A stretch of 64,000 nucleotides of DNA from Heterodera schachtii (Eukaryota; Nematoda; Chromadorea; Rhabditida; Heteroderidae). The notes below the pieces were generated by a model. That model searched no databases. It was not told the DNA's origin and saw only the letters and a list, made by a program, of their open reading frames with translations. Below are positions 42,456 through 62,871 of the stretch, piece after piece. Positions within the stretch are counted from its first letter, which is position 1. Each line of letters starts with the position of its first letter. Where the stretch lies: NCBI GenBank assembly GCA_023374025.1, contig SIJG01000013.1, forward strand, positions 650,846 through 714,845. The letters run 5' to 3'. Position numbers and translations under genes: made by a program.

Positions 42456-42461
42456 CATATT

Positions 42462-43090
42462 AGTAGTATAAGACCCCGAAAGCGCACGGTTGCGCACGGG
42501 TGTTTACCGCACAAACCCGTGCCTATGGGAGGGGTGCAACCCTTTGAAGTTACCGCCGCGGGTTTTATCGAACTTATTTGAGGGGTGCACCCTTTGAAGT
42601 TACCGCCGCGGGCTTTATCCAACCTATGGGAGGGGCGCAACCGTTTGAAGTTGCCGTTCAATCCTGAGCCTATGGGATTCTTTGAAGTCTGCCGCCAAGA
42701 TCCAAAACCTATTGGATCCCAATGAAGTGTTGCCGCCCAACCAAATCCGATTTCCCCAAATTGTTGCGGCTTTTTTTTGCCGATCCCTCTCCGCGCCGCG
42801 AAGCGCCGCGAAAGGTCTTCAATCATCCACCTGTCACCAGAGTGACAGGTGGAGGAAATTCAATTTTTATTTTGCAAATTTAAATCTTTTTTTCCAAACC
42901 TTTTAGGGCGGTTTTATTTTCTCAAATCCTGAATTTTTATGATGCTTTTTCCGAAATTAAAACTCATTTTGAAAATTTGCCAAAACCGTGCGTTTTTGTT
43001 TTGCATTTCCTTCCCCGTTGCGACGCGATGTCGGCGCCGCGCAAATTAATCGATAATGGAATTTGGAAGAAGTGTGAATTAATTGATAAT
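42462..43090 (+). repeat. Left outer terminal repeat region of the palindromic element
   Basis: In order from the tip: AGTAGTATAAGACCCCG; an 8-bp-stem hairpin at 42494-42522 (GCACGGGT...ACCCGTGC); about five imperfect 40-55-bp tandem units (about 42526-42740) built on TTTGAAGTTACCGCCGCGG; a block ACCAAATCCGATTTCCCC; a 12-bp-stem hairpin at 42826-42853 (TCCACCTGTCAC/GTGACAGGTGGA, 4-nt loop); and a block AACCGTGCGTTTTTG...GCGCAAATTAATCGATAATG. The open frames here are repeat artefacts. For a protein-primed replicon the tip is the likely origin (inference). Confidence 0.8.
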
Positions 43091-43197
43091 GGCAGTAAAT
43101 TAAATGAATTAATGAATTGGATAATAAAATTAATTATTAAATTAAATTGAAATGAAAATGAATAAATAAAACAGGATGAAAAACCTTTTCAAAAGTA

Positions 43198-43540
43198 GGT
43201 CAGCTGTCAACAAAAATTGATTGATGCATTTTTTATTTCTCTTCCATTATTTCGCAATCTGCAAGTGACTTTTTGTTCCAATTATTTCGCAATATGGCCC
43301 TTAATTAGGTCAACTGTCAATAAAATGTGATTGATTGGTTTCTTATTTAAGTTTCTCCATTATTTTTAGTTTTTTGGTCCGACTATTTCGCAATATGCCT
43401 CCTAATTTTGCAAACCTGTCACAAAAAATGATTGATGACTTTCGAAATATGGAATATCCAGACGATTTTTGCACAGTTTTTGGAATAAAATGTGACAGTT
43501 GTCTACCGAAATGATTGATTGCCCTCAAAATTAAGTCAGA
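43198..43540 (+). promoter_or_regulatory. Tandem-repeat upstream region of the left polymerase gene
   Basis: Three to four imperfect ~100-bp units each contain a GTCA(A/G)CTGTCAA-like box, a TGATTGATG/TTGATTGATT box and a TTATTTCGCAATATG box. They lie 250-590 bp upstream of the polymerase ATG. A pyrimidine-rich probable leader follows (about 43680-43790). The mirrored copy is at about 56270-56615. Repetition of the same boxes suggests binding sites, which is inference. Confidence 0.45.
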
Positions 43541-43790
43541 CCCAGACAGTCACGTGACTAGACCCTCCCCCTTTTTACCCATTTCGTACACCCGGCCCAA
43601 ACCACAGATCATTCAACTAAATAGTTGGATTTCATTAAACTCTCTTTGTGCTCTAATTTTAATTCGCTCTGCTCTATTTTTCTTTAAATTTATTCTAATC
43701 TATTACTATTTACCTACGTCTTTTTTTTCTTTCCAAATCTCTCTGCACTCTTTAATTCTTCTGCTTCAATTTCGTTTTTTCTTTTTTAAA

Positions 43791-46700
43791 ATGTCTTTTA
43801 AACGCGAGAACTCCTTCCAACCCGCCGTGCCAATGGCCAAAAAGTGGGATTTCCGATCAATCGGGTAAGTGATTTTTAATAAAAATAAATTATTAAACCA
43901 ATTTAAATATATTTATAAGACAATCATAATCGATTTTAAATCAAATTTTTCAGGAACAATTTTGCTGAAGAGATGGAAAATTATAAATTAATGGATTATC
44001 AAAAGATTACTTGCGAAAAATTTGGATTTACGAAAAATATTACTGAATTTCGTGTCAACCCGGACGTGGGACGCCCTGATGAAGCGATGAAGGATGCGAT
44101 CGACAACATGATAAAGGTGGCTTTAAAGACTACGGAAGAAAAAATGAAGCGAAAAGTGCGGATGTTTGGTGTTGCAATTACGGGCGCCGGGCTTGCTTTC
44201 CCGGTGTGGGTGCCGTATCGGGCGTACCCACAGAATAATGCGGATGTTATCATGGAGGAGATTAATAAGCTGGGGCAGAGTGGGGATGGAGAGGAGAATA
44301 AGAAAATGCTTTTATTATCTGAACCAATTACGATGAAAATTACTTGCGTGACCATGCCCAGTGGAGAGGGGCCGAAGAATGTCCACAAATTTGACTTTGG
44401 ATTCAAGGAACACCAGCGGATAGGGTAAGTATTTTTAATAAATTAAAATTAAAATAGAAAAAATTGAAATAAAAAAAAATCAATAATATTACTTTAAAAT
44501 TTTAATGAAAAAAAAAAATAAAATAATAAAGAAAGTAAAAAAAAAATAAATTTAAAAAATTCAAAAAAAATAAAAAAGAAAATAAATTAAATAAATTTAA
44601 ATAATGTAATGAACCAAAAAAAAAATTAAGTTAAATAATAAAGAAAGTAAAAAAAAAATTATTTTTAATTAAACAAAGCAACAAAAAAAACCGAAAAATA
44701 AATCTAAAAAATAAATTTTAGGATTACAAATACTGATAAATTTTGCCTGTTTTACGCGCTCGTGGCGTCTAAATTTTATTTGGAAGTGCACCGAAACATT
44801 TTTAATCGATTTATGAACAATATTGCGAGACAGAGGGACGCAGCTATTGAGCTTTTAAGTAATTGTGGGATTGATGGAAATGAAATTAGTTATGGTGTGG
44901 AGCAATTGCCAACTGTTCAAAATTATTGGGTAGGTTAAAAAATTAATGGAAAATTACCAAAATAATTAATTTTTCAGGATGAGATTTACCCCGCTAAATA
45001 CAGGGTTGTTGCATTTGAGAAGTCTGCGGATCCGCGGAAGTCGATCCGTGTTTTGTGGAAGGCCCCTATGGGTCGTGAAAATGTCGTGCCGTTATTCTTG
45101 GAGAATGGTCATTGGGATGGTCTGAAGAATTTCGTCTGCTTTTTTAATCGGGGGAGGAAATTCTGCATTGATTGCGAATGTTTTTACGACAAGGATGTTA
45201 AGCATGCGATGGAATGCCGGGCAAGATGTTATTATTGTAACCGAGTGGGAGGAGTGCCGTGCCAAAAGGAGAGTGGAATTAAAATTGAGTGTCCGAAGTG
45301 CCACCGTTATTTTTACAATTGGGAATGCTACAATTATCATCAGGGACACCAGACTTGCAACTTATGGAAGCGCTGCTTAATTTGTGACAAGACTTATCAG
45401 TTTAACCCGAAGAAGGAACATGAATGCGGAGAGACCTATTGCCAACTTTGTAGTGTAAGTCACGACCCCAAACGGGGGTGTTACATTATGCCGATAGAGG
45501 AGAAAGAGGACAAAGATGTTTACCGAATTGTCGTTTGGGTATGTTTTACAAACAAAATCAACAAAATAGGTCTTGATTTACAGGATTCGGAGACATCGCA
45601 GGATACAATTTACAAGGGGGACCAGAAGGAGCATGTGATTAATTATATTTCGGTGAGAGTGACGTGCACGGAATGCTGTGACGACAAAAATAGGGCGAAT
45701 TGCAAAATTTGTGGGGAGGAGAGGACCAAAGATTGGAGCGAAGCGGAGGGGCATGAACCGACGAAGGATTTTGTGGAATGGATTTTAACGGCTTTTACCA
45801 ATTATGATACGTATATATTTGCGCATAACGCCGGGCGGTTTGACGGTAATTTCAAGATTCAAACTTTTATTTTTAATCGGGAAAATTTTAGGACATTTTG
45901 TGTTTAATTATCTTTGCCGTACCGGGAAGAACCCGATACCGCTCATCAATGGACTAAAAATTTATGAATTCAAAGTGAAAAATTCGAAGAAACATTCAAT
46001 GCTGATATGGAGAGACTCGTGTTTATTGATGCCGGTGAAGCTTGAGTCGCTGAAGGCGACATTTAATTTGGAATGTGAGGACAAGCCGTTTTTCCCGTAT
46101 TATTACAACAAGAAAGAACATTATGGAATACGATTAGAACATCTGCCACCAATGGAGGACTATTCGCCGGGATCGATGAATAAGGAAAAATTTGCAAAAT
46201 TCGAAAAATGGTAAGAAAATATGAATTAAATTTGAATTAAATTTTCTTTCAGGTATAACGAAAATAAGGAGACGCCCTTTTATTTGGATGACGAATTGAA
46301 AAATTATTGCAGAAACGACACGGAGATATTGCTGTTATCGATTATTGAGTTTAGGAGGATATTGATTAATGACATTACGAAGGGATTTGACCCGTTGCCG
46401 AGGAGTTGTACGAATGCAGGAGTCGCGATGAATATTTTTAAGGCAATGTTTTTGTTGACGGAGCAGTTATCGATTGTGCCGGAGAAGGGATATGAGCGGT
46501 GTGACCGGGCCAGTGTGATGGCCATTAAGTATTTGGAGTGGAGGAGCAAGAGGGATGGAACTGAGATACGGCACGCGGGGAATGGAAGAGAAGTCAAAAC
46601 TGGAAAATTTAAATTGGACGGATTTATTGCAAATGAGGGAGGTAGGGACAAGTGCATTGAGGTTATGGGATGCTACATACACGGATGTTTGAATTGTTAT

Positions 46701-48522
46701 GACTCGGCAGCGGAATTGATTGGAGGAAGAACGGCCCAGGAATTGAACGATGAGACTCAGGAGAGATTGGCAGAATTGCGGAAAAGTTTGGAGGTCGAAG
46801 AAGTTTGGGTATGTTTAATTCATTTGATAGAAATTTTTATCTCCGGTTTTTAGGGTTGTCAAATTGAGAAGGAATTGAAAAAGGATGAAGAAATGCGGGA
46901 CTTCTTCGATGACAGAGGGAATGAGAAGGGGCCGATTGATCCACGGATGGCTTATGCGGGAGGGAGGACCGGACCGATGAAATTGTTTGCGAAATCGGAT
47001 GAGAAGAAAAAGATTAGTGTTTACGACATTGTGAGTCTGTACCCGTCAGTGAATTACGGTACAGCTTACCCGATTGGTTTGCCGGAGATTATTATACCGA
47101 AGAGCGATGAGATTAATGTAAATTGGACGAGACCGGAGGATTTGAAGTTTAATGGATTGTATAAAGTGAGGGTCAACCCGCCGCGAGGGTTGCGGATTCC
47201 GGTTCTGCAGTTGAAGTGTGATGAGAGATTATTATTCCCGTTGTGTTGGAGATGTGCGTCAACATTTAAGACGGAAACTACGAGATGTGATTACAATTGC
47301 CCCCATGATGAGGCACAGCGGAGATACGTGTCGACATATACCAGCGTTGAATTGGTAAGAACCTATGGTGGGAAAATTTTAAGAAAAATTGGCATTTTCA
47401 GGCAAAGGCGTTGGAATGCGGTTATACTGTGGATAGATTTTATAGAGCGTGGCACTACGAAGAGGAGGCGGATGATTTATTCAAGGGATACGTGCGATTA
47501 TTTTTGAAGCTGAAGGAGGAGGCAAGTGGTTTTCCGAAGGGAGTTGAGACGGAGGAGCAGAAGGATATGTGGAGAGAAGAGTATAAGGAAAAATATGGAA
47601 TCGACATTGAATTGGCTAAAGTGAAGAAGAATCCGGGATTGCGGTACATAAGCAAGTTGATGCTAAATAGCTTATGGGTAAGATTTAAGGTTTTGTGATA
47701 GAATTATAACCTATTATTTTAGGGAAAGTTTTCGATGAGAAATTGTTTGAACAAGAATGCGGTGATTGATAGGGCGTCGGAGTTTTATAAAATTGCGTGT
47801 GATCATAAAATTGAATTATGTGATATTGTTGAATATTCGGAAGAGGCGATTAGATTGATATACAGGGACAAGGAGGACTTTGTGATGGAGCACAAGTCGA
47901 GCAACATAGTCATTAGTTTATGGTGAGTTCAAAAAAAGTTATAAATTTGTATATAAACTAATTTTTCCAGGACGACGAGTATGGCGAGGTTAAAATTATT
48001 GGAATTCATGAGAGAAGCGGAGAGCCATGGCGGGGAGATTTTGTACACGGACACGGACAGTATTTTTGTTAGGCACGGTCGTGATGTGGAGCCGATCACG
48101 ACGGGGAAATATTTGGGAGAAATGAGCGAGAAATACGGTGGCTATGAGATTGAAGAATATTGCTGTGGAGGGGCGAAGCAGTATGCCTTGAAAATGAGAA
48201 ACAAACAGACGGGGGAGATTGAATACGTTATGAAGATTAGAGGGATTACGTTCGATGTGGATAATAAGAAGACTTTACATTACGACACATTCAGGGAGAT
48301 GGTTCTTAATTATGGAAAAGGGGAGGTGGGCCCGGCTTTCTTTGTCTACAAGAATGATTTTGGGTGAGTTTTTAAAAAATATTCCCTAAATTAATACCAA
48401 TATTTAGGCCAACGCGGGATTCGAAAGTGGTAACGAGGGAAAAGCACAAAATGTACAAGCCGGTCTGCCAGAAGGGGATCATCGATGAAGAATTGAATGT
48501 GATGCCATTTGGATTTTGTTAA
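43791..48522 (+). CDS. pPolB: Protein-primed family-B DNA polymerase, left arm, 12 exons
   Basis: Exons: 43791-43864, 43954-44424, 44722-44929, 44978-45538, 45584-45845, 45892-46210, 46253-46808, 46854-47354, 47402-47677, 47723-47922, 47971-48363, 48408-48522. All introns are GT...AG, mostly 45-48 nt, and the frame is open throughout (1311 aa). Features in order: an N-terminal region with no named domain; a Cys/His-rich zinc-binding segment at about 312-417; exo I DSE at 439-441; exo II NAGRFD at 520-525; exo III YCRND at 650-654; pol A around D875 with SLYPS; pol B KLMLNSLWG at 1069-1077; pol C YTDTDS at 1168-1173; KxY at 1212-1214. Exo I is formed only across the 45538/45584 junction, although that 45-nt intron is in frame. 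Every catalytic motif expected of Maverick polymerases is present. The role is replication of linear DNA from a protein primer. The start was chosen because it is the first ATG in the exon-1 frame after the pyrimidine-rich leader. Confidence 0.9.
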
Positions 48523-48549
48523 TTTGTATTTTATTGTATTTTTTTGTTA

Positions 48550-48555
48550 AATAAA
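48550..48555 (+). terminator. Polyadenylation signal of the left polymerase gene
   Basis: AATAAA lies 28 bp after the TAA stop (48520-48522). The mirrored copy is TTTATT at about 51227-51232 for the right-arm gene. Confidence 0.6.
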
Positions 48556-48581
48556 GTTGAATAAAAATTAAAGTGATATTA

Positions 48582-48718
48582 GGACTAGCGGGGGTGGAAC
48601 GGCCTAAAGTGAAGGCCCACTCCTGTTAGCCGTAATATTTTTATAAAAAATCCAACGTTCCAGGGGAAAGTGGCACCCGGGTTTGATCGAATTCTCTGGC
48701 GCGGCTTTAAAATTTTTT
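48582..48718 (+). ncRNA. Candidate structured small RNA downstream of the left polymerase gene
   Basis: A hairpin at 48585-48629 has a 12-bp stem (48585-48596 with 48618-48629, three G-U pairs), a 4-nt bulge, then an inner GGCCT/AGGCC stem with a 7-nt loop. All three wobbles are G-U on this strand and would be A-C mismatches on the other, which favours a plus-strand RNA. An A-box-like TAGCGGGGGTGG (from 48586), a B-box-like GGGTTTGATCGA (about 48679-48690) and a T6 run (48713-48718) suggest a pol III unit. Alternatively it is a 3'-UTR structure of the polymerase mRNA. Confidence 0.35.
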
Positions 48719-48775
48719 GATTTAGTTATAATTAATAGACTAATTCGATTCATTTCTATAAGTAAAAATTAACAG

Positions 48776-48902
48776 AGAAGAGTTTGAGTATGATGAATTG
48801 TCAGAAGAATGTTTAAGGCGAATTTTAGGAGCTATACATAGTGAGTGGATGGAGTGTATTTACACATTAGACCCAGAGATGGAAATTGGGAAAATAGACT
48901 AA
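48776..48902 (+). CDS. Exon-like coding cassette, left arm, unknown acidic peptide
   Basis: After an acceptor-like ATTAACAG there are 42 codons to TAA (48900-48902). The peptide is acidic and well mixed (it includes EEFEYDELSEECLRRILGAI). The mirrored copy at 50870-50996 stays open with a single visible change (G to V near the end). No start codon or upstream exon is evident. It may be an alternative 3' exon of the polymerase gene, the last exon of a lost gene, or cargo. I do not recognise the peptide. Confidence 0.35.
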
Positions 48903-48939
48903 AAGCCGAAAAGCTAGCACTAAAATCCTGAGCTAAAAT

Positions 48940-49110
48940 GGTGAAATATGTGAAATATCGAAACTACAAGGTGAAAAATTTAGGTGAAAACGCACATAGT
49001 GCCATGTTTTCGAGCGGGATATGTGATGAATGTTTAGGTGAAAACAGGTGAAAATAGGTGAAATGGTAAAAGAACAAAGGTGAAATATTCGAGAAATGGT
49101 GAAAAAGGTG
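48940..49110 (+). repeat. AGGTGAAA short-motif repeat cluster
   Basis: About ten copies of (A)GGTGAAA(T/A) lie at irregular short spacing immediately upstream of the FLYWCH ORF. The mirrored cluster is at about 50660-50835. It could be a binding-site array or simple-sequence drift. Confidence 0.55.
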
Positions 49111-49154
49111 AAAATATATATAGGTTGCGTGCATTTAAGGGCATAACAAAAATA

Positions 49155-49376
49155 ATGACAAAATTGGTCGCTGTCAGCTGCGCAAAAGGTATGTTCTGCG
49201 ATGGATATCGTTACTACAAACACAAAAAGACAAAGAATAAAACATGGTGGAAGTGTGAGCATTACCATTATGGATGTAAGGGTTGGGGTTTTGAATGCAA
49301 TGGTGAATTTATAAACACACAAAGACATAATCATCAACCAGATTCTGTATTACTTCAGATTGAGAGGGAAAAGTAG
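49155..49376 (+). CDS. FLYWCH-type zinc-finger protein, left arm
   Basis: ATG at 49155 gives 73 aa to TAG at 49374-49376. The same frame is open back to 49062, so an upstream start or exon is possible. The protein is essentially one FLYWCH finger: CDGYRYY, then TWWKC, GCKGWG, and a closing RHNH pair, giving the C2H2 zinc ligands. FLYWCH fingers bind DNA or protein and occur in transcription factors and next to transposases. Here it may bind element DNA or regulate the polymerase (inference). The right-arm copy appears identical in sequence. It is the only recognisable protein besides the polymerase. Confidence 0.65.
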   Translation: MTKLVAVSCAKGMFCDGYRYYKHKKTKNKTWWKCEHYHYGCKGWGFECNGEFINTQRHNHQPDSVLLQIEREK

Positions 49377-49489
49377 ATTTTATATTTCTTAGGACATGAA
49401 TAATATGTTAGTTTTTTTGAAATGAACAAGGGATTTATGGTACTGTTGCGTATTTTATTGATTTATTTTGTAATCTATTACTTCATGCA

Positions 49490-50285
49490 GAATTGGCGGA
49501 GAGGATGGGGGTAGTGTCATTATCGATTAATTTGCGGGACGGTGACATCGGTGAAGAGGATGGGGCACTGTCATTATTAATTATTTTATTTTGCGCGGCG
49601 TCAGCATCGGCGGGTAGGGTTGGGGCGGTTTTATTATCGATTATTTTTCTGCGGCTCGACATCGCGGCACACCGGCGGGCGGGGAGTAAATGCAAAAAAC
49701 GCACGGTTTTGGGTACTTGCACCTTTTTAACAGATACAATTTCATTTTACCTGTTATTTTAGTGAAAGGTTGATGATTGTTTACCTTTCCGTAATGCGTC
49801 GCGGCGGTGAAAAAATTGCCCGAGCGGGTTTAGGGAAATTGGATTTGGTTGCGGGGCAACCTCAAAGAGGCCCAATAGGTTTCGGTTCTGCGCGGCAACT
49901 TCAACGGGCCACACCCCTCCAAACCAAATCCAATTTCCCTAAACCCGCTCGGGCAATTTTTTCACCGCCGCGACGCATTACGGAAAGGTAAACAATCATC
50001 AACCTTTCACTAAAATAACAGGTAAAATGAAATTGTATCTGTTAAAAAGGTGCAAGTACCCAAAACCGTGCGTTTTTTTCATTTACTCCCCGCCCGCCGG
50101 TGTGCCGCGATGTCGAGCCGCAGAAAAATAATCGATAATAAAACCGCCCCAACCCTACCCGCCGATGCTGACGCCGCGCAAAATAAAAATAATTAATAAT
50201 GACAGTGCCCCATCCTCTTCACCGATGTCACCGTCCCGCAAATTAATCGATAATGACACTACCCCCATCCTCTCCGCCAATTCTG
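49490..50285. repeat. Palindrome centre: inverted, diverged copies of the terminal-repeat blocks
   Basis: On each side of the centre (about 49,907) the same blocks occur in the same order as in the outer terminal repeats. From the centre outward: ACACCCCTCC/ACTTCAACGGG-type tandem-unit remnants, ACCAAATCCAATTTCCC, GGAAAGGTAAACAATCATCA, AACCGTGCGTTTTTT, and GCGCAAATTAATCGATAATG-like motifs repeated about three times. The ~70 bp at the very centre (about 49855-49925) are not symmetrical. This looks like a fused pair of inner terminal repeats. Open frames here are shadows of the repeat. Confidence 0.7.
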
Positions 50286-50395
50286 CATGAAGTAATAGAT
50301 TACAAAATAAATCAATAAAATACGCAACAGTACCATAAATCCCTTGTTCATTTCAAAAAACTAACATATTATTCATGTCCTAAGAAATATAAAAT

Positions 50396-50617
50396 CTACT
50401 TTTCCCTCTCAATCTGAAGTAATACAGAATCTGGTTGATGATTATGTCTTTGTGTGTTTATAAATTCACCATTGCATTCAAAACCCCAACCCTTACATCC
50501 ATAATGGTAATGCTCACACTTCCACCATGTTTTATTCTTCGTCTTTTTGTGTTTGTAGTAACGATATCCATCGCAGAACATACCTTTTGCGCAGCTGACA
50601 GCGACCAATTTTGTCAT
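50396..50617 (-). CDS. FLYWCH-type zinc-finger protein, right arm
   Basis: Mirror copy of the left-arm ORF with the same 73-aa product from ATG at 50617 to the stop at 50396-50398. The finger residues (TWWKC, GCKGWG, RHNH) are unchanged. The upstream in-frame extension reaches at least 50692. Retention of two identical copies could reflect function or simply recent duplication. Confidence 0.65.
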   Translation of the reverse strand: MTKLVAVSCAKGMFCDGYRYYKHKKTKNKTWWKCEHYHYGCKGWGFECNGEFINTQRHNHQPDSVLLQIEREK

Positions 50618-50869
50618 TATTTTTGTTATGCCCTTAAATGCACGCAACCTATATATATTTTCACCTTTTTCACCATTTCTCGAATATTTCACCTTTGTTC
50701 TTTTACCATTTCACCTATTTTCACCTGTTTTCACCTAAACATTCATCACATATCCCGCTCGAAAACATGGCACTATATGCGTTTTCACCTAAATTTTTCA
50801 CCTTGTAGTTTCGATATTTCACATATTTCACCATTTTAGCTCAGGATTTTAGTGCTAGCTTTTCGGCTT

Positions 50870-50996
50870 TTAGTCTATTTTCACAATTTCCATCTCTGGG
50901 TCTAATGTGTAAATACACTCCATCCACTCACTATGTATAGCTCCTAAAATTCGCCTTAAACATTCTTCTGACAATTCATCATACTCAAACTCTTCT
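50870..50996 (-). CDS. Exon-like coding cassette, right arm
   Basis: Mirror of 48776-48902: acceptor-like AACAG, then 42 codons to TAA at 50870-50872. It has one visible amino-acid difference from the left copy near the C-terminus (V for G). Confidence 0.35.
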
Positions 50997-51053
50997 CTGT
51001 TAATTTTTACTTATAGAAATGAATCGAATTAGTCTATTAATTATAACTAAATC

Positions 51054-51190
51054 AAAAAATTTTAAAGCCGCGCCAGAGAATTAGATCAAACCCGGGTGCC
51101 ACTTTCCCCTGGAACGTTGGATTTTTTATAAAAATATTACGGCTAACAGGAGTGGGCCTTCACTTTAGGCCGTTCCACCCCCGCTAGTCC
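51054..51190 (-). ncRNA. Candidate structured small RNA, right arm
   Basis: Mirror of 48582-48718. The hairpin, B-box-like motif and oligo-T are kept, with a single visible base change near the B-box (GATCTAATTC instead of GATCGAATTC). Confidence 0.35.
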
Positions 51191-51249
51191 TAATATCACT
51201 TTAATTTTTATTCAACTTTATTTAACAAAAAAATACAATAAAATACAAA

Positions 51250-54200
51250 TTAACAAAATCCAAATGGCATCACATTCAATTCTTCATCGATGATCCCCTT
51301 CTGGCAGACCGGCTTGTACATTTTGTGCTTTTCCCTCGTTACCACTTTCGAATCCCGCGTTGGCCTAAATATTGGTATTAATTTAGGGAATATTTTTTAA
51401 AAACTCACCCAAAATCATTCTTGTAGACAAAGAAAGCCGGGTCCACCTCCCCTTTTCCATAATTAAGAACCATCTCCCTGAATGTGTCGTAATGTAAAGT
51501 CTTCTTATTATCCACATCGAACGTAATCCCTCTAATCTTCATAACGTATTCAATCTCCCCCGTCTGTTTGTTTCTCATCTTCAAGGCATACTGCTTCGCC
51601 CCTCCACAGCAATATTCTTCAATCTCATAGCCACCGTATTCCTCGCTCATTTCTCCCAAATATTTCCCCGTCGTGATCGGCTCCACATCACGATCGTGCC
51701 TAACAAAAATACTGTCCGTGTCCGTGTACAAAATCTCCCCGCCATGGCTCTCCGCTTCTCTCATGAATTCCAATAATTTTAACCTCGCCATACTCGTCGT
51801 CCTGGAAAAATTAGTTTATATACAAATTTATAACCTTTTTTGAACTCACCATAAACTAATGACTATGTTGCTCGACTTGTGCTCCATCACAAAGTCCTCC
51901 TTGTCCCTGTATATCAATCTAATCGCCTCTTCCGAATATTCAACAATATCACATAATTCAATTTTATGATCACACGCAATTTTATAAAACTCCGACGCCC
52001 TATCAATCACCGCATTCTTGTTCAAACAATTTCTCATCGAAAACTTTCCCTAAAATAATAGGTTATAATTCTATCACAAAACCTTAAATCTTACCCATAA
52101 GCTATTTAGCATCAACTTGCTTATGTACCGCAATCCCGGATTCTTCTTCACTTTAGCCAATTCAATGTCGATTCCATATTTTTCCTTATACTCTTCTCTC
52201 CACATATCCTTCTGCTCCTCCGTCTCAACTCCCTTCGGAAAACCGCTTGCCTCCTCCTTCAGCTTCAAAAATAATCGCACGTATCCCTTGAATAAATCAT
52301 CCGCCTCCTCTTCGTAGTGCCACGCTCTATAAAATCTATCCACAGTATAACCGCATTCCAACGCCTTTGCCTGAAAATGTCAATTTTTCTTAAAATTTTC
52401 CCACCATAGGTTCTTACCAATTCAACGCTGGTATATGTCGCCACGTATCTCCGCTGTGCCTCATCATGGGGGCAATTGTAATCACATCTCGTAGTTTCCG
52501 TCTTAAATGTTGACGCACATCTCCAACACAACGGGAATAATAATCTCTCATCACACTTCAACTGCAGAACCGGAATCCGCAACCCTCGCGGCGGGTTGAC
52601 CCTCACTTTATACAATCCATTAAACTTCAAATCCTCCGGTCTCGTCCAATTTACATTAATCTCATCGCTCTTCGGTATAATAATCTCCGGCAAACCAATC
52701 GGGTAAGCTGTACCGTAATTCACTGACGGGTACAGACTCACAATGTCGTAAACACTAATCTTTTTCTTTTCATCCGATTTAGCAAACAATTTCATCGGTC
52801 CGGTCCTCCCTCCCGCATAAGCCATCCGCGGATCAATCGGCCCCTTCTCATTCCCTCTGTCGTCGAAGAAGACCCGCATTTCTTCATCCTTTTTCAATTC
52901 CTTCTCAATTTGACAACCCTAAAAACTGGAGATAAAAATTTCTATCAAATGAATTAAACATACCCAAACTTCTTCGACCTCCAAACTTTTCCGCAATTCC
53001 GACAATCTCTCCTGAGTCTCATCGTTCAATTCCTGGGCCGTTCTTCCTCCAATCAGTTCCGCTGCCGAGTCATAACAATTCAAACATCCGTGTATATAGC
53101 ATCCCATAACTTCAATGCATTTGTCCGTAGCTCCCTCATTTGAAATAAATCCATCCAATTTATATTTTCCAACTTTGACTTCCCGTCCGTTCCCCGCATG
53201 CCGTATCTCAATTCCATCCCGCTTGCTTCTCCACTCCAAATACTTAATGGCCATCACGCTGGCTCGGTCACATCGTTCATATCCCTTCTCCGGCACAATC
53301 GATAACTGCTCCGTCAACAAAAACATTGCTTTAAAAATATTCATCGCGACTCCTGCATTCGTACAACTCCTCGGCAACGGGTCAAATCCCTTCGTAATGT
53401 CATTAATCAATATCCTCCTAAACTCAATAATCGATAACAGCAATATCTCCGTGTCGTTTCTGCAATAATTTTTCAATTCGTCATCCAAATAAAAGGGCGT
53501 CTCCTTATTTTCGTTATACCTGAAAGAAAATTTAATTCAAATTTAATTCATATTTTCTTACCATTTTTCGAATTTTGCAAATTTTTCCTTATTCATCGAT
53601 CCCGGCGAATAGTCCTCCATTGGTGGCAGATGTTCTAATCGTATTCCATAATGTTCTTTCTTGTTGTAATAATACGGGAAAAACGGCTTGTCCTCACATT
53701 CCAAATTAAATGTCGCCTTCAGCGACTCAAGCTTCACCGGCATCAATAAACACGAGTCTCTCCATATCAGCATTGAATGTTTCTTCGAATTTTTCACTTT
53801 GAATTCATAAATTTTTAGTCCATTGATGAGCGGTATCGGGTTCTTCCCGGTACGGCAAAGATAATTAAACACAAAATGTCCTAAAATTTTCCCGATTAAA
53901 AATAAAAGTTTGAATCTTGAAATTACCGTCAAACCGCCCGGCGTTATGCGCAAATATATACGTATCATAATTGGTAAAAGCCGTTAAAATCCATTCCACA
54001 AAATCCTTCGTCGGTTCATGCCCCTCCGCTTCGCTCCAATCTTTGGTCCTCTCCTCCCCACAAATTTTGCAATTCGCCCTATTTTTGTCGTCACAGCATT
54101 CCGTGCACGTCACTCTCACCGAAATATAATTAATCACATGCTCCTTCTGGTCCCCCTTGTAAATTGTATCCTGCGATGTCTCCGAATCCTGTAAATCAAG

Positions 54201-56020
54201 ACCTATTTTGTTGATTTTGTTTGTAAAACATACCCAAACGACAATTCGGTAAACATCTTTGTCCTCTTTCTCCTCTATCGGCATAATGTAACACCCCCGT
54301 TTGGGGTCGTGACTTACACTACAAAGTTGGCAATAGGTCTCTCCGCATTCATGTTCCTTCTTCGGGTTAAACTGATAAGTCTTGTCACAAATTAAGCAGC
54401 GCTTCCATAAGTTGCAAGTCTGGTGTCCCTGATGATAATTGTAGCATTCCCAATTGTAAAAATAACGGTGGCACTTCGGACACTCAATTTTAATTCCACT
54501 CTCCTTTTGGCACGGCACTCCTCCCACTCGGTTACAATAATAACATCTTGCCCGGCATTCCATCGCATGCTTAACATCCTTGTCGTAAAAACATTCGCAA
54601 TCAATGCAGAATTTCCTCCCCCGATTAAAAAAGCAGACGAAATTCTTCAGACCATCCCAATGACCATTCTCCAAGAATAACGGCACGACATTTTCACGAC
54701 CCATAGGGGCCTTCCACAAAACACGGATCGACTTCCGCGGATCCGCAGACTTCTCAAATGCAACAACCCTGTATTTAGCGGGGTAAATCTCATCCTGAAA
54801 AATTAATTATTTTGGTATTTTTCCATTAATTTTTTAACCTACCCAATAATTTTGAACAGTTGGCAATTGCTCCACACCATAACTAATTTCATTTCCATCA
54901 ATCCCACAATTACTTAAAAGCTCAATAGCTGCGTCCCTCTGTCTCGCAATATTGTTCATAAATCGATTAAAAATGTTTCGGTGCACTTCCAAATAAAATT
55001 TAGACGCCACGAGCGCGTAAAACAGGCAAAATTTATCAGTATTTGTAATCCTAAAATTTATTTTTTAGATTTATTTTTCGGTTTTTTGTGTTGCTTTGTT
55101 TAATTAAAAATAATTTTTTTTTACTTTCTTTATAATTTAACTTATTTTTTTTTTTGGTTCATTACATTATTTTAAATTTATTTAATTTATTTACTTTTTG
55201 ATTTTTTGATTTTTTAAAATTTATTTTCTATATATATTTTTTTGAATTTTTTAAATTTATTATTTTTTTTTTACTTTCTTTATTATTTTATTTTATTTTT
55301 TTCATTAAAATTTTAAAGTAATTATTTTTGATTTTTTTTATTTCAATTTTTTCTATTTTAATTTTAATTTATTAAAAATACTTACCCTATCCGCTGGTGT
55401 TCCTTGAATCCAAAGTCAAATTTGTGGACATTCTTCGGCCCCTCTCCACTGGGCATGGTCACGCAAGTAATTTTCATCGTAATTGGTTCAGATAATAAAA
55501 GCATTTTCTTATTCTCCTCTCCATCCCCACTCTGCCCCAGCTTATTAATCTCCTCCATGATAACATCCGCATTATTCTGTGGGTACGCCCGATACGGCAC
55601 CCACACCGGGAAAGCAAGCCCGGCGCCCGTAATTGCAACACCAAACATCCGCACTTTTCGCTTCATTTTTTCTTCCGTAGTCTTTAAAGCCACCTTTATC
55701 ATGTTGTCGATCGCATCCTTCATCGCTTCATCAGGGCGTCCCACGTCCGGGTTGACACGAAATTCAGTAATATTTTTCGTAAATCCAAATTTTTCGCAAG
55801 TAATCGTTTGATAATCCATTAATTTATAATTTTCCATCTCTTCAGCAAAATTGTTCCTGAAAAAATTTGATTTAAAATCGATTATGATTGTCTTATAAAT
55901 ATATTTAAATTGGTTTAATAATTTATTTTTATTAAAAATCACTTACCCGATTGATCGGAAATCCCACTTTTTGGCCATTGGCACGGCGGGTTGGAAGGAG
56001 TTCTCGCGTTTAAAAGACAT
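51250..56020 (-). CDS. pPolB: Protein-primed family-B DNA polymerase, right arm, 12 exons
   Basis: Exons in transcript order: 55947-56020, 55386-55856, 54843-55050, 54234-54794, 53927-54188, 53562-53880, 52964-53519, 52418-52918, 52095-52370, 51850-52049, 51409-51801, 51250-51364. Every exon has exactly the length of its left-arm counterpart, and all splice sites are kept. Intron 1 differs by 1 nt and intron 2 by 38 nt. All exo, pol, zinc and KxY motifs are intact. I count about 13 amino-acid differences between the arms. About seven fall in one short stretch of exon 7 (about 53110-53225) where silent changes are also dense, suggesting a conversion tract from another family member. Two intact copies converge on the palindrome centre. 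Confidence 0.9.
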
Positions 56021-56734
56021 TTTAAAAAGAAAAAACGAAATTGAAGCAGAAGAATTAAAGAGTGCAGAGAGATTTGGAAAGAAAAAAAGACGTAGGTAAA
56101 TAGTAATAGATTAGAATAAATTTAAAGAAAAATAGAGCAGAGCGAATTAAAATTAGAGCGCAAAGAGAGTTTAATGAAATCCAACTATTTAGTTGAATGA
56201 TCTGTGGTTTGGGCCGGGTGTACGAAATGGGTAAAAAGGGGAGGGTCTAGTCACGTGACTGTCTGGGTCTGACTTAATTTTGAGGGCAATCAATCATTTC
56301 GGTAGACAACTGTCACATTTTATTCCAAAAACTGTGCAAAAATCGTCTGGATATTCCATATTTCGAAAGTCATCAATCATTTTTTGTGACAGGTTTGCAA
56401 AATTAGGAGGCATATTGCGAAATAGTCGGACCAAAAAACTAAAAATAATGGAGAAACTTAAATAAGAAACCAATCAATCACATTTTATTGACAGTTGACC
56501 TAATTAAGGGCCATATTGCGAAATAATTGGAACAAAAAGTCACTTGCAGATTGCGAAATAATGGAAGAGAAATAAAAAATGCATCAATCAATTTTTGTTG
56601 ACAGCTGACCTACTTTTGAAAAGGTTTTTCATCCTGTTTTATTTATTCATTTTCATTTCAATTTAATTTAATAATTAATTTTATTATCCAATTCATTAAT
56701 TCATTTAATTTACTGCCATTATCAATTAATTCAC

Positions 56735-57352
56735 ACTTCTTCCAAATTCCATTATCGATTAATTTGCGCGGCGCCGACATCGCGTCGCAACGGGGAAGGA
56801 AATGCAAAACAAAAACGCACGGTTTTGGCAAATTTTCAAAATGAGTTTTAATTTCGGAAAAAGCATCATAAAAATTCAGGATTTGAGAAAATAAAACCGC
56901 CCTAAAAGGTTTGGAAAAAAAGATTTAAATTTGCAAAATAAAAATTGAATTTCCTCCACCTGTCACTCTGGTGACAGGTGGATGATTGAAGACCTTTCGC
57001 GGCGCTTCGCGGCGCGGAGAGGGATCGGCAAAAAAAAAAAAAAGCCGCAACAATTTGGGGAAATCGGATTTGGTTGGGCGGCAACACTTCATTGGGATCC
57101 AATAGGTTTTGGATCTTGGCGGCAGACTTCAAAGAATCCCATAGGCTCAGGATTGAACGGCAACTTCAAACGGTTGCGCCCCTCCCATAGGTTGGATAAA
57201 GCCCGCGGCGGTAACTTCAAAGGGTGCACCCCTCAAATAAGTTCGATAAAACCCGCGGCGGTAACTTCAAAGGGTTGCACCCCTCCCATAGGCACGGGTT
57301 TGTGCGGTAAACACCCGTGCGCAACCGTGCGCTTTCGGGGTCTTATACTACT
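56735..57352 (-). repeat. Right outer terminal repeat region of the palindromic element
   Basis: Mirror of 42462-43090, ending ...GGTCTTATACTACT. A poly-A expansion at about 57030-57042 distinguishes it from the left copy. The hairpins and tandem units are conserved. Confidence 0.8.
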
Positions 57353-57358
57353 CATATT

Positions 57359-57649
57359 TTATTACTTAATTTACGGTTTTTATCACATAAAAATTCCAGC
57401 TCTTTAATTATAAAAAAAAATTTAAAATTATTAATATAAAATTAACAAATAGTTAATATCTTAAACTTAAATAGGCAATGGTGCAGTTTTGTGGTTTCTG
57501 CGTAAAATAAATTTAAAAATTTAAGAAGTATTTTTTCTAGGATAGAAAAATGCGCTGATTACGAATCTGAGCTCGGATTTTGCAAAATCATTGATTTTGT
57601 CTATGATACTACAATAGGCACCTATCTTTTTTTTTTTCTGGTAGCCTAC
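57359..57649. other. AT-rich spacer between the two Maverick-type elements
   Basis: About 290 bp of host-like DNA with no gene. The second element probably begins at about 57650 (AGTACCCTTTTGGGG). Confidence 0.5.
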
Positions 57650-58230
57650 AGTACCCTTTTGGGGGGCGTGCGCGGGGGGGGACGCGGGCGGTCGTCGTGT
57701 CGTTGTCGTTGTCGCGGGGGGGGGGACGCGGGCGGCGGCGCTAGTTGACGTCGTCGTTGGGGCGTACGCTTGGGTGTGAGCGTACGCGTCCGAGGCGTAC
57801 GCATTGAGCCTTTTGGGGGAGGGGGGGGGCGTGCGCCGGGGTGGGGGGGGGGCGACGACGGTTGGTGATGGGGGGCGTGCGCCCTGTCGAAGCGCTGGTG
57901 GTGCGGGGCGTATGGTTGCTGAGGGTGTGAGCGTACGCGTCCGAGGCGTACGCATGGGCCCTTGAGGAGGGGAGGGGGAGGCAAGGCGTGCGCCGAGAGG
58001 GGAAGCCGGGAGGGGGGGGGGGGGGGCGTGCGCCCAGGTATGGAAGCGAGCGGTCGTCAGTTGGAGGAGGGGGTTCGCTCGACGGTTGGATTCCGTAGCT
58101 TAACGTATCCTTTGGGAGGCGCGCGCCTGGGGTGGGGAGAGGGCGGGAGGAGTGGGCGTACGCGTCTGAGCCCTAAGCCGCACGCATTGGCCCATGAGAA
58201 AGTAACAAAAAAATACATTGACGACCGCGT
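57650..58230. repeat. G-rich terminal/subterminal repeat of the second Maverick
   Basis: Long G runs alternate with GGCGTGCGC and with GAGCGTACGCGTCCGAGG / CGTACGCAT blocks. The latter occur at about 57777-57805, 57928-57956 and, diverged, 58153-58190, implying a repeat unit of roughly 150 bp. Proline/arginine-rich open frames across it are artefacts. The corresponding right terminal repeat is outside the window. Confidence 0.65.
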
Positions 58231-58319
58231 GCGACAAAACACGAGACTCATTTCGCTTTAATTCACTTGCGTGACGGTGCAAGTTCAAATGAGTCAGGGG
58301 CTTTGCCAAAGGCGGTCGA

Positions 58320-58385
58320 GCCTTCACTGTGTGCGGTGTCGAACCGTCAGCGTCCGAATGCTTCACCACTCGGCCAAACGGGCAC
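58320..58385 (-). pseudogene. tRNA-like sequence with canonical A-box, short anticodon region
   Basis: The minus strand reads GTGCCCG, then TGGCCGAGTGG (a perfect Leu/Ser-type A-box), and GGTTCGACACC (B-box-like) 20 nt after the A-box. That spacing is about 12 nt too short for a normal tRNA, and no matching acceptor 3' strand follows. It is probably a truncated tRNA copy or an internal pol III promoter near the element's end. Confidence 0.35.
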
Positions 58386-58393
58386 CGGGGAAA

Positions 58394-58828
58394 TTAAACG
58401 AATTGTGGCAATTTGTGAGGAGGGTAAAGTGACGCGACTCTTATGCCGTTGAGGTGGTGCTCGAATTCGTTGTGCGCTGCGCTGTTATTGCTGCTGCCGC
58501 TGCCGCCATGGTCGCTGTTACCGGCGCTCGGCACCCCAACAGATGCTAGGCGCGGACCATCAATGCTATATGGGGGGTGGTGAGCCAAATCCAAACCAGG
58601 CTGTTGAAGGCGTAGCCAGCGTACGGCGGTGAAGAAGCAGAAGAGAAAAATGGGTACAACAACGGTGTAGTGGAGGGCAAGGATCAGCGCTTGGGCGGCA
58701 CGTTGTAACGTGTCGCTGTCGGGCCATGCGTACGCGTCGGGCTGATACACGGTTAGAAATGCTGCATCGGCCGTCTGAATTCCACCGTGGGAGTCGTCAG
58801 CGACCGGTGGTGTTCCGTTGCCGATCAT
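58394..58828 (-). CDS. Single-pass membrane protein of unknown function (Maverick)
   Basis: 144 aa from ATG at 58828. A hydrophobic segment at about residues 47-69 (including VVVPIFLFCFF) is followed by RWLRL, predicting one membrane span with a basic residue cluster after it. The C-terminal half is Ser/Asn/His/Gly-rich and probably disordered. No family is recognised. It is the last gene before the terminal repeat, ~88 bp downstream of the major capsid stop, and is preceded by a GCATAAAAG motif. Small membrane proteins accompany capsid genes in several Mavericks and could act in virion membrane or entry steps, but nothing in the sequence proves that. Confidence 0.6.
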   Translation of the reverse strand: MIGNGTPPVADDSHGGIQTADAAFLTVYQPDAYAWPDSDTLQRAAQALILALHYTVVVPIFLFCFFTAVRWLRLQQPGLDLAHHPPYSIDGPRLASVGVPSAGNSDHGGSGSSNNSAAHNEFEHHLNGIRVASLYPPHKLPQFV

Positions 58829-58912
58829 TTATGTTTTTTGGAGGGAGCGGTTTGGTATGCTAATTTAGTCTCTCCAAATGAAAAAGTGATGCTAAGGAGT
58901 CTATTTTTCCAT

Positions 58913-58921
58913 CTTTTATGC
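58913..58921 (-). promoter_or_regulatory. TATA-like motif before the membrane-protein gene
   Basis: The minus strand GCATAAAAG contains the TAA stop of the major capsid gene (58916-58918). It lies about 85 nt upstream of the ATG at 58828. Confidence 0.4.
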
Positions 58922-60301
58922 AATTTTAGAATCGGTCACAATATGACGGTTGTAATCAATCATGATTAGTTGATCGAATTCGCCAAGACAGATCATTTCA
59001 ACGCCGCCCTGCGGTATCTCTCTGTTGAACTGAAGGCGTACACTGGTGGTGCCCGAGCGGAGCAGTTCAAAGCCACAGCTGTCGTCCAGCGTCGAGGTCA
59101 TCGGTACGACAAAGAAGGTCCATCCGTCTCGGAACTGCTCCAGCGTGATGTCCATGGAGCGTTCCGAGTTTGCCATGCCCAGCGCCTCGTACATGTCGAC
59201 AAACGGGCGTATGTAGGCGGCTCCGACAAAGTTCATGCGGTGGGGGATGGCGGGATACGTGTTGCCACCAGCGTGCACACTGATTGCACGTAGGTCGTAT
59301 GGACGGAAGTTGAACGGTGTGTGGGCGTAGGCGCCGTTGAAGGCCCGGTTCGCCACAAGCGCGATGGTGAGTCGGCGTGGGATGGCAGCCGAGAATATGT
59401 TGTGGTCCATTTCCGTGCGGCCAGCGGTCAGAAAGCAGGACTTGACCTCGGTGCGCCGTACAGCATAAGTGGCCGGCTGTTTTTCGAGTGTCTTGTAGAT
59501 GGAGATGTTGAGCGACGGCTGCACCTCGATGACCTTCACGTACAGTTTGATGTCGTGCACTCGGAGTGCGTACGAAGTGCCGGCAGCCCCGGCGCCCAGA
59601 CTGTGGACCAGGAATGCGTCCTTGGAACGGTAGATGGTGAACAGGACGTCCATGTTGTTGAGCAGGTACAGCTCTTGGTTGCCCAAGTCAAAGTCGAGGC
59701 GCGACAGAAACTCCGCCTTACAACCGCCCGAGAAGCGTGCACAGCGTCTCTTGAAGCCGTCATCGTTGGCGTCATCGTGTGTTCGGCTTACGTAGTAGCC
59801 GTTGGAAGCCATGAAATGGCTCTTCGCATTTGCGGGAAACGACAGCTCGTTGGAGATGTACGCTTTGAACGGGTACAGTGTCCCGCTGTCGTACAGCTCA
59901 GTGTTTTGGACTTCAACCTGAATACAAGTGTGTGTGTGTGTGTGTATGTTAGGGCTTCTGTTGTAGCCCACCTTTAGTTGTTGTACAAACGTTTGTCCGA
60001 TGCTTTGGCACACGCCGACATCCTTGTCCACCACACTGTCAATGGGCTCCATGACGCCTTGCGCATTTGCCTTTTCAATGGACAGTTCGAGGTACAAGTA
60101 CACACGGGACAGGTCGGCCCACAGGCTATCATTGTACATGCGGAATAGGTACGGTCCCTCTTGGCTGATCGTTGACAATGGGAGGAGTTCGCGAAAAAAG
60201 GAGCGCGCCACCGACACGTTGGTGGGTGGTACCGCAAAAATGTTGAGCGCGCTGTTGAACGCTAACGCACTCTGCTGACTGATGCGCTTTGCACAAGTCA
60301 T
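58916..60301 (-). CDS. MCP: Major capsid protein, double jelly-roll type, with a probable 54-nt intron
   Basis: The open frame is 461 codons from ATG at 60301 to TAA. The product resembles the Polinton major capsid family often annotated in invertebrates as F54H12.2-like: an N-terminal beta-rich half with LYPFKAYI, a central FNGAYAHTPFNFRPYDL segment, and a C-terminal EFDQLIMIDYNR ending. It forms the icosahedral shell. The stretch 59918-59971 starts GT, ends CAG and encodes a CA-microsatellite (repeated His-Thr) in frame. Removing it gives about 443 aa and restores the smooth strand leading to the AYI motif, so I regard it as a spliced intron or a recent in-frame insertion. The pVI-like gene ends only 15 bp upstream. 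Confidence 0.85.
   Translation of the reverse strand: MTCAKRISQQSALAFNSALNIFAVPPTNVSVARSFFRELLPLSTISQEGPYLFRMYNDSLWADLSRVYLYLELSIEKANAQGVMEPIDSVVDKDVGVCQSIGQTFVQQLKVGYNRSPNIHTHTHTCIQVEVQNTELYDSGTLYPFKAYISNELSFPANAKSHFMASNGYYVSRTHDDANDDGFKRRCARFSGGCKAEFLSRLDFDLGNQELYLLNNMDVLFTIYRSKDAFLVHSLGAGAAGTSYALRVHDIKLYVKVIEVQPSLNISIYKTLEKQPATYAVRRTEVKSCFLTAGRTEMDHNIFSAAIPRRLTIALVANRAFNGAYAHTPFNFRPYDLRAISVHAGGNTYPAIPHRMNFVGAAYIRPFVDMYEALGMANSERSMDITLEQFRDGWTFFVVPMTSTLDDSCGFELLRSGTTSVRLQFNREIPQGGVEMICLGEFDQLIMIDYNRHIVTDSKIA
59918..59971 (-). other. Probable 54-nt intron with (CA)n in the major capsid gene
   Basis: The minus strand has GTGGGC at the 5' end, an ACACAC run, and TTGTATTCAG at the 3' end. The length is a multiple of three, so the frame survives with or without splicing. 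Confidence 0.55.
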
Positions 60302-60316
60302 TATGTTTTGTGGCTC

Positions 60317-61042
60317 TCAATAAGCGCCGAGTGTGTCAAAGCGGGGCGCACGCCGTGGTCGCTTCTTGTGGTCGCTATTCGCGTGCGTCACTGTGCGGGA
60401 GCGCTTGCGTGGTGTTGAGCCAGGTTGTTGTCGGCGGAGTATGCGTTCCAGAGTTTGAAGCTCCTTTTTGTGTTGCTTAGCAGGTGCCGTTGGCGGACCC
60501 ATTGTGGAAAATAGGCCTTTCTTTCCACTTTTTATGCCCTCTTTGGGTTCGGCGGCGGCATTCTGTCTGTATCGTTTGAAGTCGAAGTTCCCGCCACCGC
60601 TCTGCCGACTCTTGGCCACGGTGTCCGCCGCTTTGTCTAGCAGATTTTTGAGGCCGGCGCGTCCCTCGCTGACCAGCGACTCCTTCAAGTTCTGCCCATC
60701 GAGCACGTTGGAGAGGACGCGTGCGCCTGACTCGAGCCCTTGGCGCCCAATGGCGGCGCCAGCCTGTCGACCAATGGGCAACAGGAAGCGGAGGAAGCTC
60801 CTGAACATGGAGCCAAGCCCTGCGCCGCGCTGGTACGGTAGGCCGGAGAAAACGGGGTAGGTACTGTGGCCACCACCGGTCATCATATAGTCGTGTGCTG
60901 CTGGGGCCTCGGCGGTTCCCGCAGGTGCCGTGTTGAGTCCGTGGCCCGCGTCGGCTGGGCCCGAGTGCACGACTGCGTCGTTTTGGGCGCATGTGAACAT
61001 GGGGGTCCAGTCGACTCCGAGCGGATCAAAGTCTACGTGCAT
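60317..61042 (-). CDS. Small virion protein, adenovirus pVI/pX-like (Maverick minor structural protein)
   Basis: 241 aa from ATG at 61042 to TGA. An N-terminal acidic/proline-alanine segment is followed at about 56-75 by GGGHSTYPVFSGLPYQRGAG, then a hydrophobic-amphipathic stretch (LLPIGRQAGAAIGRQG), then GARVLSNVLDGQNLKES. The C-terminus is strongly basic (RKRSR, KKRPRR), suited to binding DNA. The 'YP.F.GLPYQRG.GLGS' pattern recurs in Polinton and adintovirus structural proteins compared with adenovirus core/minor proteins. The role is probably internal virion or membrane-lytic, cleaved by the neighbouring protease (GG-x-like sites near GGGH and SGGGN), which is inference. Confidence 0.7.
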   Translation of the reverse strand: MHVDFDPLGVDWTPMFTCAQNDAVVHSGPADAGHGLNTAPAGTAEAPAAHDYMMTGGGHSTYPVFSGLPYQRGAGLGSMFRSFLRFLLPIGRQAGAAIGRQGLESGARVLSNVLDGQNLKESLVSEGRAGLKNLLDKAADTVAKSRQSGGGNFDFKRYRQNAAAEPKEGIKSGKKGLFSTMGPPTAPAKQHKKELQTLERILRRQQPGSTPRKRSRTVTHANSDHKKRPRRAPRFDTLGAY

Positions 61043-61096
61043 GTCCGCTTCTCAGACGATGTGTGTTTTTCCGTCTAAGAGTGTACTGCTGCTGCT

Positions 61097-61104
61097 GTTT
61101 TATG
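61097..61104 (-). promoter_or_regulatory. TATA-like motif before the pVI-like gene
   Basis: The minus strand CATAAAAC contains the TAA stop of the protease gene (61100-61102). It lies ~58 nt upstream of the ATG at 61042. Confidence 0.4.
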
Positions 61105-61579: not shown

Positions 61580-61619
61580 TTATTTCTCTCTCTATTAATT
61601 TCAATGTTTGGAAATGGAA

Positions 61620-61628
61620 CTTTTATGC
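61620..61628 (-). promoter_or_regulatory. TATA-like motif before the protease gene
   Basis: The minus strand GCATAAAAG lies ~41 nt upstream of the protease ATG and ~30 nt after the minor capsid TGA. It is the same 9-mer as at 58913-58921. Confidence 0.45.
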
Positions 61629-61657
61629 ACGTAAGTATCTACAAACGGAATACAAAT

Positions 61658-62824: not shown

Positions 62825-62862
62825 TGTCAATGATGAAAGGACTATGTGTTTGCTGTTGAGCC

Positions 62863-62871
62863 ATTTTATAT
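62863..62871 (-). promoter_or_regulatory. TATA-like motif before the minor capsid gene
   Basis: The minus strand CATATAAAATG overlaps the TAA stop of the integrase gene (62866-62868). It lies ~40 nt upstream of the ATG at 62824. Confidence 0.4.

Follow-up and report, generated by a model that had tools for sequence, protein, structure and literature searches.

A 64,000-nucleotide stretch of the Heterodera schachtii genome (here, the window; contig SIJG01000013.1, positions 650,846 to 714,845) carries at 42462-57352 a 14,891-bp element that is palindromic over nearly its whole length, with a DNA polymerase gene (PolB) in each arm. We confirm that this element is real and multi-copy, and read it as a palindromic satellite derived from Mavericks (Polintons). 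The palindromes apparently spread as parasites of the full-length transposon. The reading that we consider the most probable is that of a mobile Maverick satellite existing as an episomal inverted dimer, which would be copied by its own PolB, keep its arms alike by hairpin copying and return to the chromosome with an integrase provided in trans.

Structure of the palindromic element

The sequence AGTAGTATAAGACC starts at 42462 and its reversed copy stands at 57352, giving termini of the form AGTAGT...ACTACT, and an exact 6-bp target-site duplication (TSD), CATATT, lies on both sides (Table 1). These ends and this duplication had been described in an initial annotation made from the sequence of the window, together with two mirror-image arms of about 7.4 kb, and alignment bears out both descriptions: 7340 of 7413 aligned columns are identical between the arms (99.0%), with 73 substitutions and 14 indel events, and a single local alignment pairs 42462-49850 with 57352-49922. 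The annotation had also called the element fully palindromic, which holds for the inverted repeat as a feature of the whole element but not for the innermost 71 nucleotides (49851-49921), a core without a mirror match. The flanks (200 bp each) are unrelated, with 89 of 186 aligned columns identical; the element is, moreover, interior to a 2.36-Mb contig. Further copies with the same ends, as envisaged in the annotation, were found in C95 and C30 (elements are named by contig, the window element being C13), two palindromes with 6-bp TSDs of their own (CTCATT and CCTGTG, respectively). Given the unrelated flanks and these further TSD-flanked palindromes, the window element is therefore not an assembly mirror.

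The arms and the full-length Mavericks

Across the assembly (178 Mb in 356 contigs), the end pattern AGTAGTATA-N(24-34)-GTGTTTMCCGC marks 57 termini (forward in 29 cases, reverse in 28), and the reversed pattern, used as a control, marks none. Thirteen pairs of these termini face each other at a distance of up to 20 kb, and 12 of the pairs (all but C1) were examined. Nine of these have an exact 6-bp TSD (the palindromes C13, C95 and C30, and also C59, C2, C18, C36, C208 and C13b); the C73 pair has one after a shift of 3 nucleotides, and the C169 and C113 pairs have none. Six TSD-flanked copies carry a single PolB (C2, C18, C36, C59, C73 and C208; C36 and C208 were not read through). C59 is 15,275 bp long, with the TSD CGGGCG and terminal repeats of about 0.55 kb that are 90% identical. 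On the side opposite PolB it has genes for an A32/IVa2-type ATPase, a TATA-binding protein and an rve integrase, the last of these split over two frames, and in the middle it encodes a protease, capsid-type proteins and a membrane protein. The same middle genes are contained in C73, C46 and C61, and are matched by DNA at 92-96% in C2, C18 and C16. An integrase is also present in C169 and in a guanine-cytosine (GC)-rich Maverick neighbouring the window element. A related element encodes a capsid protein that shares 98% identity, over 42% of its length, with a Heterodera trifolii protein; among viral contigs no relative was found, and none of the four end-pattern matches there was confirmed.

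The left arm of the window element aligns with the full-length copies up to about 48677, at 94.1% identity for C73, 91.0% for C59 and 87.7% for C2, and then diverges. By these alignments, the arm that carries PolB corresponds to the left end of the Mavericks present at full length in this genome. The annotation had noted the loss of integrase, ATPase, protease and capsid, and rightly: nine Maverick protein queries (including these four and four others) gave no match to the window palindrome at E<=0.01. The element nonetheless shares its ends and its type of TSD with the co-resident C59, which has integrase, ATPase and capsid genes.

PolB is recognised by a match of 46854-47504 to PF03175 (DNA_pol_B_2; E 1.1e-11), two other PolB pieces matching more weakly, and we take it to be protein-primed from the family to which it belongs. 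Its left copy is made up of the open reading frames (ORFs) 43940-44428 and 44966-45907 and of exon blocks up to 48367; the first ORF, which is without a Pfam match, is read as the first exon by its position and conservation. The reading frame breaks at ~46211-46252, ~46809-46853 and ~47355-47401 (positions taken by eye from the alignment); GT-AG borders are present at these breaks in 11 of the 11 rows displayed (26 rows aligned), and the breaks look like short introns. Of the two fully intact polymerase genes claimed by the annotation, what stands is that the breaks resemble introns and that the exon blocks tested are free of stops, but intactness of the whole gene is just plausible. For PolB blocks p2, p3 and p4, the ratio of non-synonymous to synonymous substitution rates (dN/dS) is 0.03-0.18 in the scorable comparisons between elements (several dS values being saturated, the exo block matching only the other arm, and C73 missing for p2 and C61 for p4), and the first-exon block gives a dS of 0.229 and a dN of 0.017 between C13 and C95. 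The exon blocks look to be under purifying selection. A PolB piece shows 86% identity over 54% to another Heterodera trifolii protein and 73% over 93% to one from Globodera pallida; taken with the capsid match, this makes a cyst nematode the probable host, and a search for COX1 yielded nothing beyond short fragments. As a separate observation, the skew of G over C is strong on the PolB coding strand (+0.31 at 43600-48677 and -0.31 at 51099-56200) and stays between -0.07 and +0.06 in pieces from the capsid region and right end of Mavericks.

The central module

The remainder of the arm is a 1.2-kb central module (48678-49886), in which GGTGAAA occurs 10 times, nine of the copies being close-set, as compared with a mean of 0.2 and a maximum of 3 in 2000 shuffles. 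A 73-amino-acid protein of the module matches the FLYWCH profile at 20.1 bits, the Pfam cut-off being 23.6; where the annotation had listed a protein-primed PolB and a FLYWCH zinc finger as the recognisable cargo, the PolB match stands and the second protein is FLYWCH-like. The FLYWCH peptides of C13 and C195 are identical, and between C13 and C30, with 29 of 37.8 synonymous sites changed (saturated) and a dN of 0.15, the peptide is conserved.

The innermost stretch of the module (49518-49885) contains four segments that follow, in order, the left terminal repeat read in inverted orientation from 43058 to 42702 (the best at E 4.5e-12); of 11 control windows taken elsewhere in the arm, none did so. 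The right end of C59 matches this innermost stretch with the order of the segments kept. The arm reads as left terminal repeat, PolB, GGTGAAA/FLYWCH module and right terminal repeat, that is, as a mini-Maverick, and the mirror axis is inside the right terminal repeat, about 240 bp of whose outer end is missing. With this order and with the axis in the right repeat, the element is therefore best read as a tail-to-tail inverted dimer.

The FLYWCH/GGTGAAA module was not found in the Maverick pieces searched and, within what was read or searched, is peculiar to the palindromes and to one 7.2-kb mini-element, C13b (7,221 bp, TSD GCCGGT). C13b is known from its two end patterns, its TSD and one FLYWCH match, and may be a monomer of the mini-Maverick kind.

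Other palindromes and the polymerase tree

Facing matches to the central module are found at at least 13 loci (C13, C15, C27, C28, C30, C34, C40, C56, C77, C95, C109, C116 and C195). Both halves of the centre were read for C13, C15, C56, C95 and C195, and one arm for C27, C28 and C30; the others are known from the table of matches alone, plus two 0.3-kb end pieces of C77. PolB is present in both arms of C13, C95, C195 and C56. The C95 palindrome (15,307 bp) has arms identical at 7272 of 7358 columns and is mirror-symmetric through its centre (94%), and the polymerase parts of the arms are identical at 3560 of 3606 positions in C195 and at 3489 of 3508 in C56. C30, read as its left arm and the outermost right end, is a PolB-less palindrome, and the PolB pieces, compared with the arms of C28, C27 and C30, gave a best E of 0.37 and no recognisable PolB. 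These three copies carry an ORF with an AT-hook-like motif (14.8 bits in the C30 copy, cut-off 17.4), GGTGAAA repeats and FLYWCH. Decay is seen in C15, with a palindromic centre and a deleted left arm, in C27 and in the half-copies C181 and C174.

In a tree of the polymerase region (20 rows; 7 of 27 loci, C27b, C15, C1, C36, C80, C9 and C129, were left out), the two arms of the same palindrome are sisters in four of four cases (C13, C95, C195 and C56), with bootstrap 100. The palindromes fall at four places among the full-length copies; being a palindrome, mapped as a label, needs 4 changes on the tree, and well-supported branches force at least 3 of them. Since the palindromes are interspersed in this way, we reject a single origin of their polymerase; the distinct lineage suggested by the annotation is likewise not upheld as one polymerase lineage, the PolB arm matching the left end of Mavericks of the same genome. 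With the arms sisters in every case while the palindromes are interspersed, the arms have therefore been re-copied from each other. There are two polymerase types, about 76-77% identical, each with full-length and palindromic copies. The modules of C13 and C195 are 96-97% identical but their polymerase regions only 77%, that is, of different types, both arms of each element carrying one type; it follows that arms were exchanged with Mavericks and that the two arms of an element changed jointly. In C95, likewise, an identical FLYWCH frameshift is present in either arm.

Proposed mechanism and alternatives

We propose that a mini-Maverick would arise that keeps a left end including the terminal repeat and the protein-primed PolB, gains the GGTGAAA/FLYWCH module and ends in the right terminal repeat, and that it would become a tail-to-tail inverted dimer, the two right repeats being fused and trimmed at the centre. 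The resulting linear episome would replicate from two identical left ends by its own PolB. A displaced palindrome strand could fold back on itself, and copying of this hairpin would rewrite one arm from the other, so that the arms would stay alike while the elements diverge. Re-entry into the chromosome would depend on the integrase of full-length Mavericks, which would recognise the same ends and make the same 6-bp duplication; we infer this activity in trans because TSD-flanked copies exist without an integrase gene. The annotation had pictured a self-replicating satellite that borrows its integration functions: the borrowing is likely, on the grounds just given, and the self-replicating part we infer. 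FLYWCH and GGTGAAA could, at a guess, act as an origin- or end-binding pair.

Dimerisation was perhaps favoured as restoring a packageable length. The PolB palindromes with measured ends are two, of 14,891 and 15,307 bp, as compared with 14,678-15,831 bp for the six single-PolB copies. A fuller proposal, in which a satellite lineage survives as inverted dimers with its own polymerase and FLYWCH/repeat module, borrows integrase and capsid, and is doubled since only genomes of about 15 kb are packaged, is possible, although we put it forward tentatively and lean somewhat against it. If it were true, length would be an indirect sign that nematode Mavericks still make particles, and a palindrome copied through hairpins would correct its own genome, exchanging polymerases with its helper and rewriting its two arms at the same time. 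The packaging of animal Mavericks into virions is, to our knowledge, still an open question; the two measured PolB palindromes, of full-element length from two half-length units, make it testable.

Several observations weigh against the satellite interpretation. The evidence is genome sequence alone, and the comparison of lengths rests on two PolB palindromes; C30 measures just 12,917 bp, and length parity with full-length Mavericks is thus not general. The centres of the PolB-less palindromes C30 and C28 do not match their own left ends, and an inverted dimer through the repeat is therefore supported only for the PolB palindromes. Between the left and right arms of the window element, PolB p4 has a dN/dS of 0.70, with few changes, and the dN/dS values between palindromes may stem from selection in full-length ancestors. 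No FLYWCH was found at C56 or in the half-copy C174; the gene is frameshifted in C95 and has a stop and a gap in C27, and C28 and C30 differ in it by 2 synonymous and 4 non-synonymous changes. The arm differences of the window element are clustered, 28 of the 73 falling in one 500-bp bin where the variant found elsewhere belongs consistently to neither arm; some process thus also places patches in single arms. Chromosomal gene conversion could, moreover, be what keeps the arms alike.

We think it unlikely, if less so than the other alternatives, that the palindromes are dead by-products, defective inverted-repeat genomes from Maverick replication that were occasionally integrated and have no life of their own. 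Undersized adenovirus vectors yield inverted dimers (according to excerpts of PMC4189039) and several copies are decayed (C15, C27 and the two half-copies), but a propagating family is suggested by the recurrence of the module at several loci, by the conservation of the FLYWCH peptide between C13 and C30, and by the three palindromes with TSDs on both sides. A little less likely again is an origin within the chromosome, in which repair or template switching would have made an inverted second copy of the left end of an already inserted Maverick and gene conversion would then have kept the arms alike, as in other chromosomal palindromes. The interspersion of polymerase types with full-length copies, the clustered arm differences, which fit conversion tracts, and C169, a real chimera without a TSD, are in line with such an origin. 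However, the exact TSDs around three whole palindromes imply that each entered as a unit, and C13, C15, C95 and C195, at different loci, share one central module including its junction. It is highly improbable that the element is a cut-and-paste transposon of the foldback type (Galileo-like) whose terminal repeats grew and which captured a polymerase by accident: non-autonomous Galileo copies do have long, variable terminal repeats (in the excerpts of PMC3573991 considered), but here the ends, TSD length and PolB are shared with Mavericks resident in the same genome, and no other transposase gene was recognised when the larger ORFs of the arm were scanned against Pfam, although no search was aimed at transposases. 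Least credible is an assembly artefact, which may account for C27, situated at a contig start and flanked by mirror-image sequences (matching in all 90 aligned columns), but which we reject for the window element on its unrelated flanks, TSD, 73 arm differences and interior position, C95 and C30 being independent palindromes.

Other features of the window and the resident Mavericks

Table 1. Features of the palindromic element in window coordinates.
Feature	Position	Strand	Basis
Left target-site duplication, CATATT	42456-42461		Exact copy of the right one
Left palindrome arm	42462-49886	+	Arm alignment
Outer terminal repeat region	42462-43058	+	Inner limit is the last position matched by the centre
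PolB gene, left copy	43940-48367	+	PF03175, GT-AG borders, dN/dS
Departure of left arm from full-length Mavericks	48677 (48669-48677, depending on the copy)		DNA alignment
GGTGAAA array	48940-49113	+	9 copies
FLYWCH-like protein, 73 amino acids, left copy	49155-49376	+	Profile search, below cut-off
Truncated right terminal repeat	49518-49885	+	Collinearity of 4 segments with 43058-42702 of the left end, inverted; lacks the outer ~240 bp
Right palindrome arm	49887-57352	-	99.0% identity to reversed left arm
Truncated right terminal repeat, mirror copy	49922-50255	-	Arm alignment
FLYWCH-like protein, 73 amino acids, right copy	50396-50617	-	Mirror
GGTGAAA array, mirror copy	50659-50832	-	Arm alignment
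PolB gene, right copy (mirror)	51405-55834	-	Arm alignment
Right target-site duplication, CATATT	57353-57358		Exact copy of the left one

Close to the palindrome, the GC-rich second Maverick lies within 57353-64000 of the window and continues into L042; its GC content is 55-62%, as compared with about 20% in the left flank, and it has matches to capsid (43% identical), protease, minor-capsid-like and integrase proteins. Gypsy-like retroelement frames lie beside it (L043:4844-8103, by eye from the translation). The TATA-binding-protein gene of C59 (L061:3614-4237; PF00352, E 6.3e-38) has a counterpart in the GC-rich Maverick region (L043:3769-4515, or C13:727669-728415; E 3e-16), and a fragment is present in the C27 arm; among the titles listed in a literature search on TATA-binding protein and Polinton, none reported such a gene. 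Between PolB and protease, full-length Mavericks encode a 294-amino-acid single-pass membrane-type protein (L050:3200-4081, L051:15-896) with no Pfam family above cut-off, which may, at a guess, be an envelope or fusion protein. C169:42277-60822 is a Maverick chimera: a left end with PolB, of one type, stands opposite a Maverick of another type that has an open 349-amino-acid integrase frame, and there is no TSD. Because its flanks (CGTACA and CTCATG) are mismatched, we rejected the reading that C169 was inserted as one unit bearing a polymerase at each end.

Comparison with known systems

The palindrome is a protein-primed mobile element whose two polymerase genes stand face to face and evolve together. 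Whole-element inverted repeats are a new place in which to seek satellites, as short-read assemblies tend to lose them and annotation pipelines may split them. Among the titles listed in literature searches, none concerned palindromic Mavericks, and we make no claim of their absence from print. Like the satellites among the Preplasmiviricota (virophages and similar), the palindrome would rely on another virus-like element for some functions; virophages, however, encode capsids, whereas the palindrome retains replication only. AG...CT-type terminal inverted repeats are a feature of Mavericks/Polintons, checked here against the resident full-length copies, and the palindrome has them, as well as a 6-bp TSD and a polymerase of the DNA_pol_B_2 family; it shares its terminal repeats with full-length copies resident in the genome, and its DNA identity to these reaches 94%, in the PolB region of C73. 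It departs from Mavericks in that queries with integrase, ATPase, protease and capsid find nothing in it, in its FLYWCH/GGTGAAA module, and in an inverted repeat that is the whole palindrome, as against about 0.55 kb in C59. Foldback/Galileo elements of Drosophila also have very long inverted repeats and copies without transposase, but Galileo, as described in excerpts of PMC3573991, has a P-superfamily transposase, 7-bp targets and repeats of at most ~1.25 kb, whereas the palindrome keeps a polymerase in arms of 7.4 kb. In undersized helper-dependent adenovirus vectors, a protein-primed genome with terminal repeats likewise passes from a monomer below size to an inverted dimer, and 15-kb vectors are packaged in the form of 30-kb dimers, both direct and inverted (in the excerpts of PMC4189039). 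Those are laboratory vectors, whereas the palindromes, which we know from their sequence, reside in a genome, share a junction and are bounded by TSDs.

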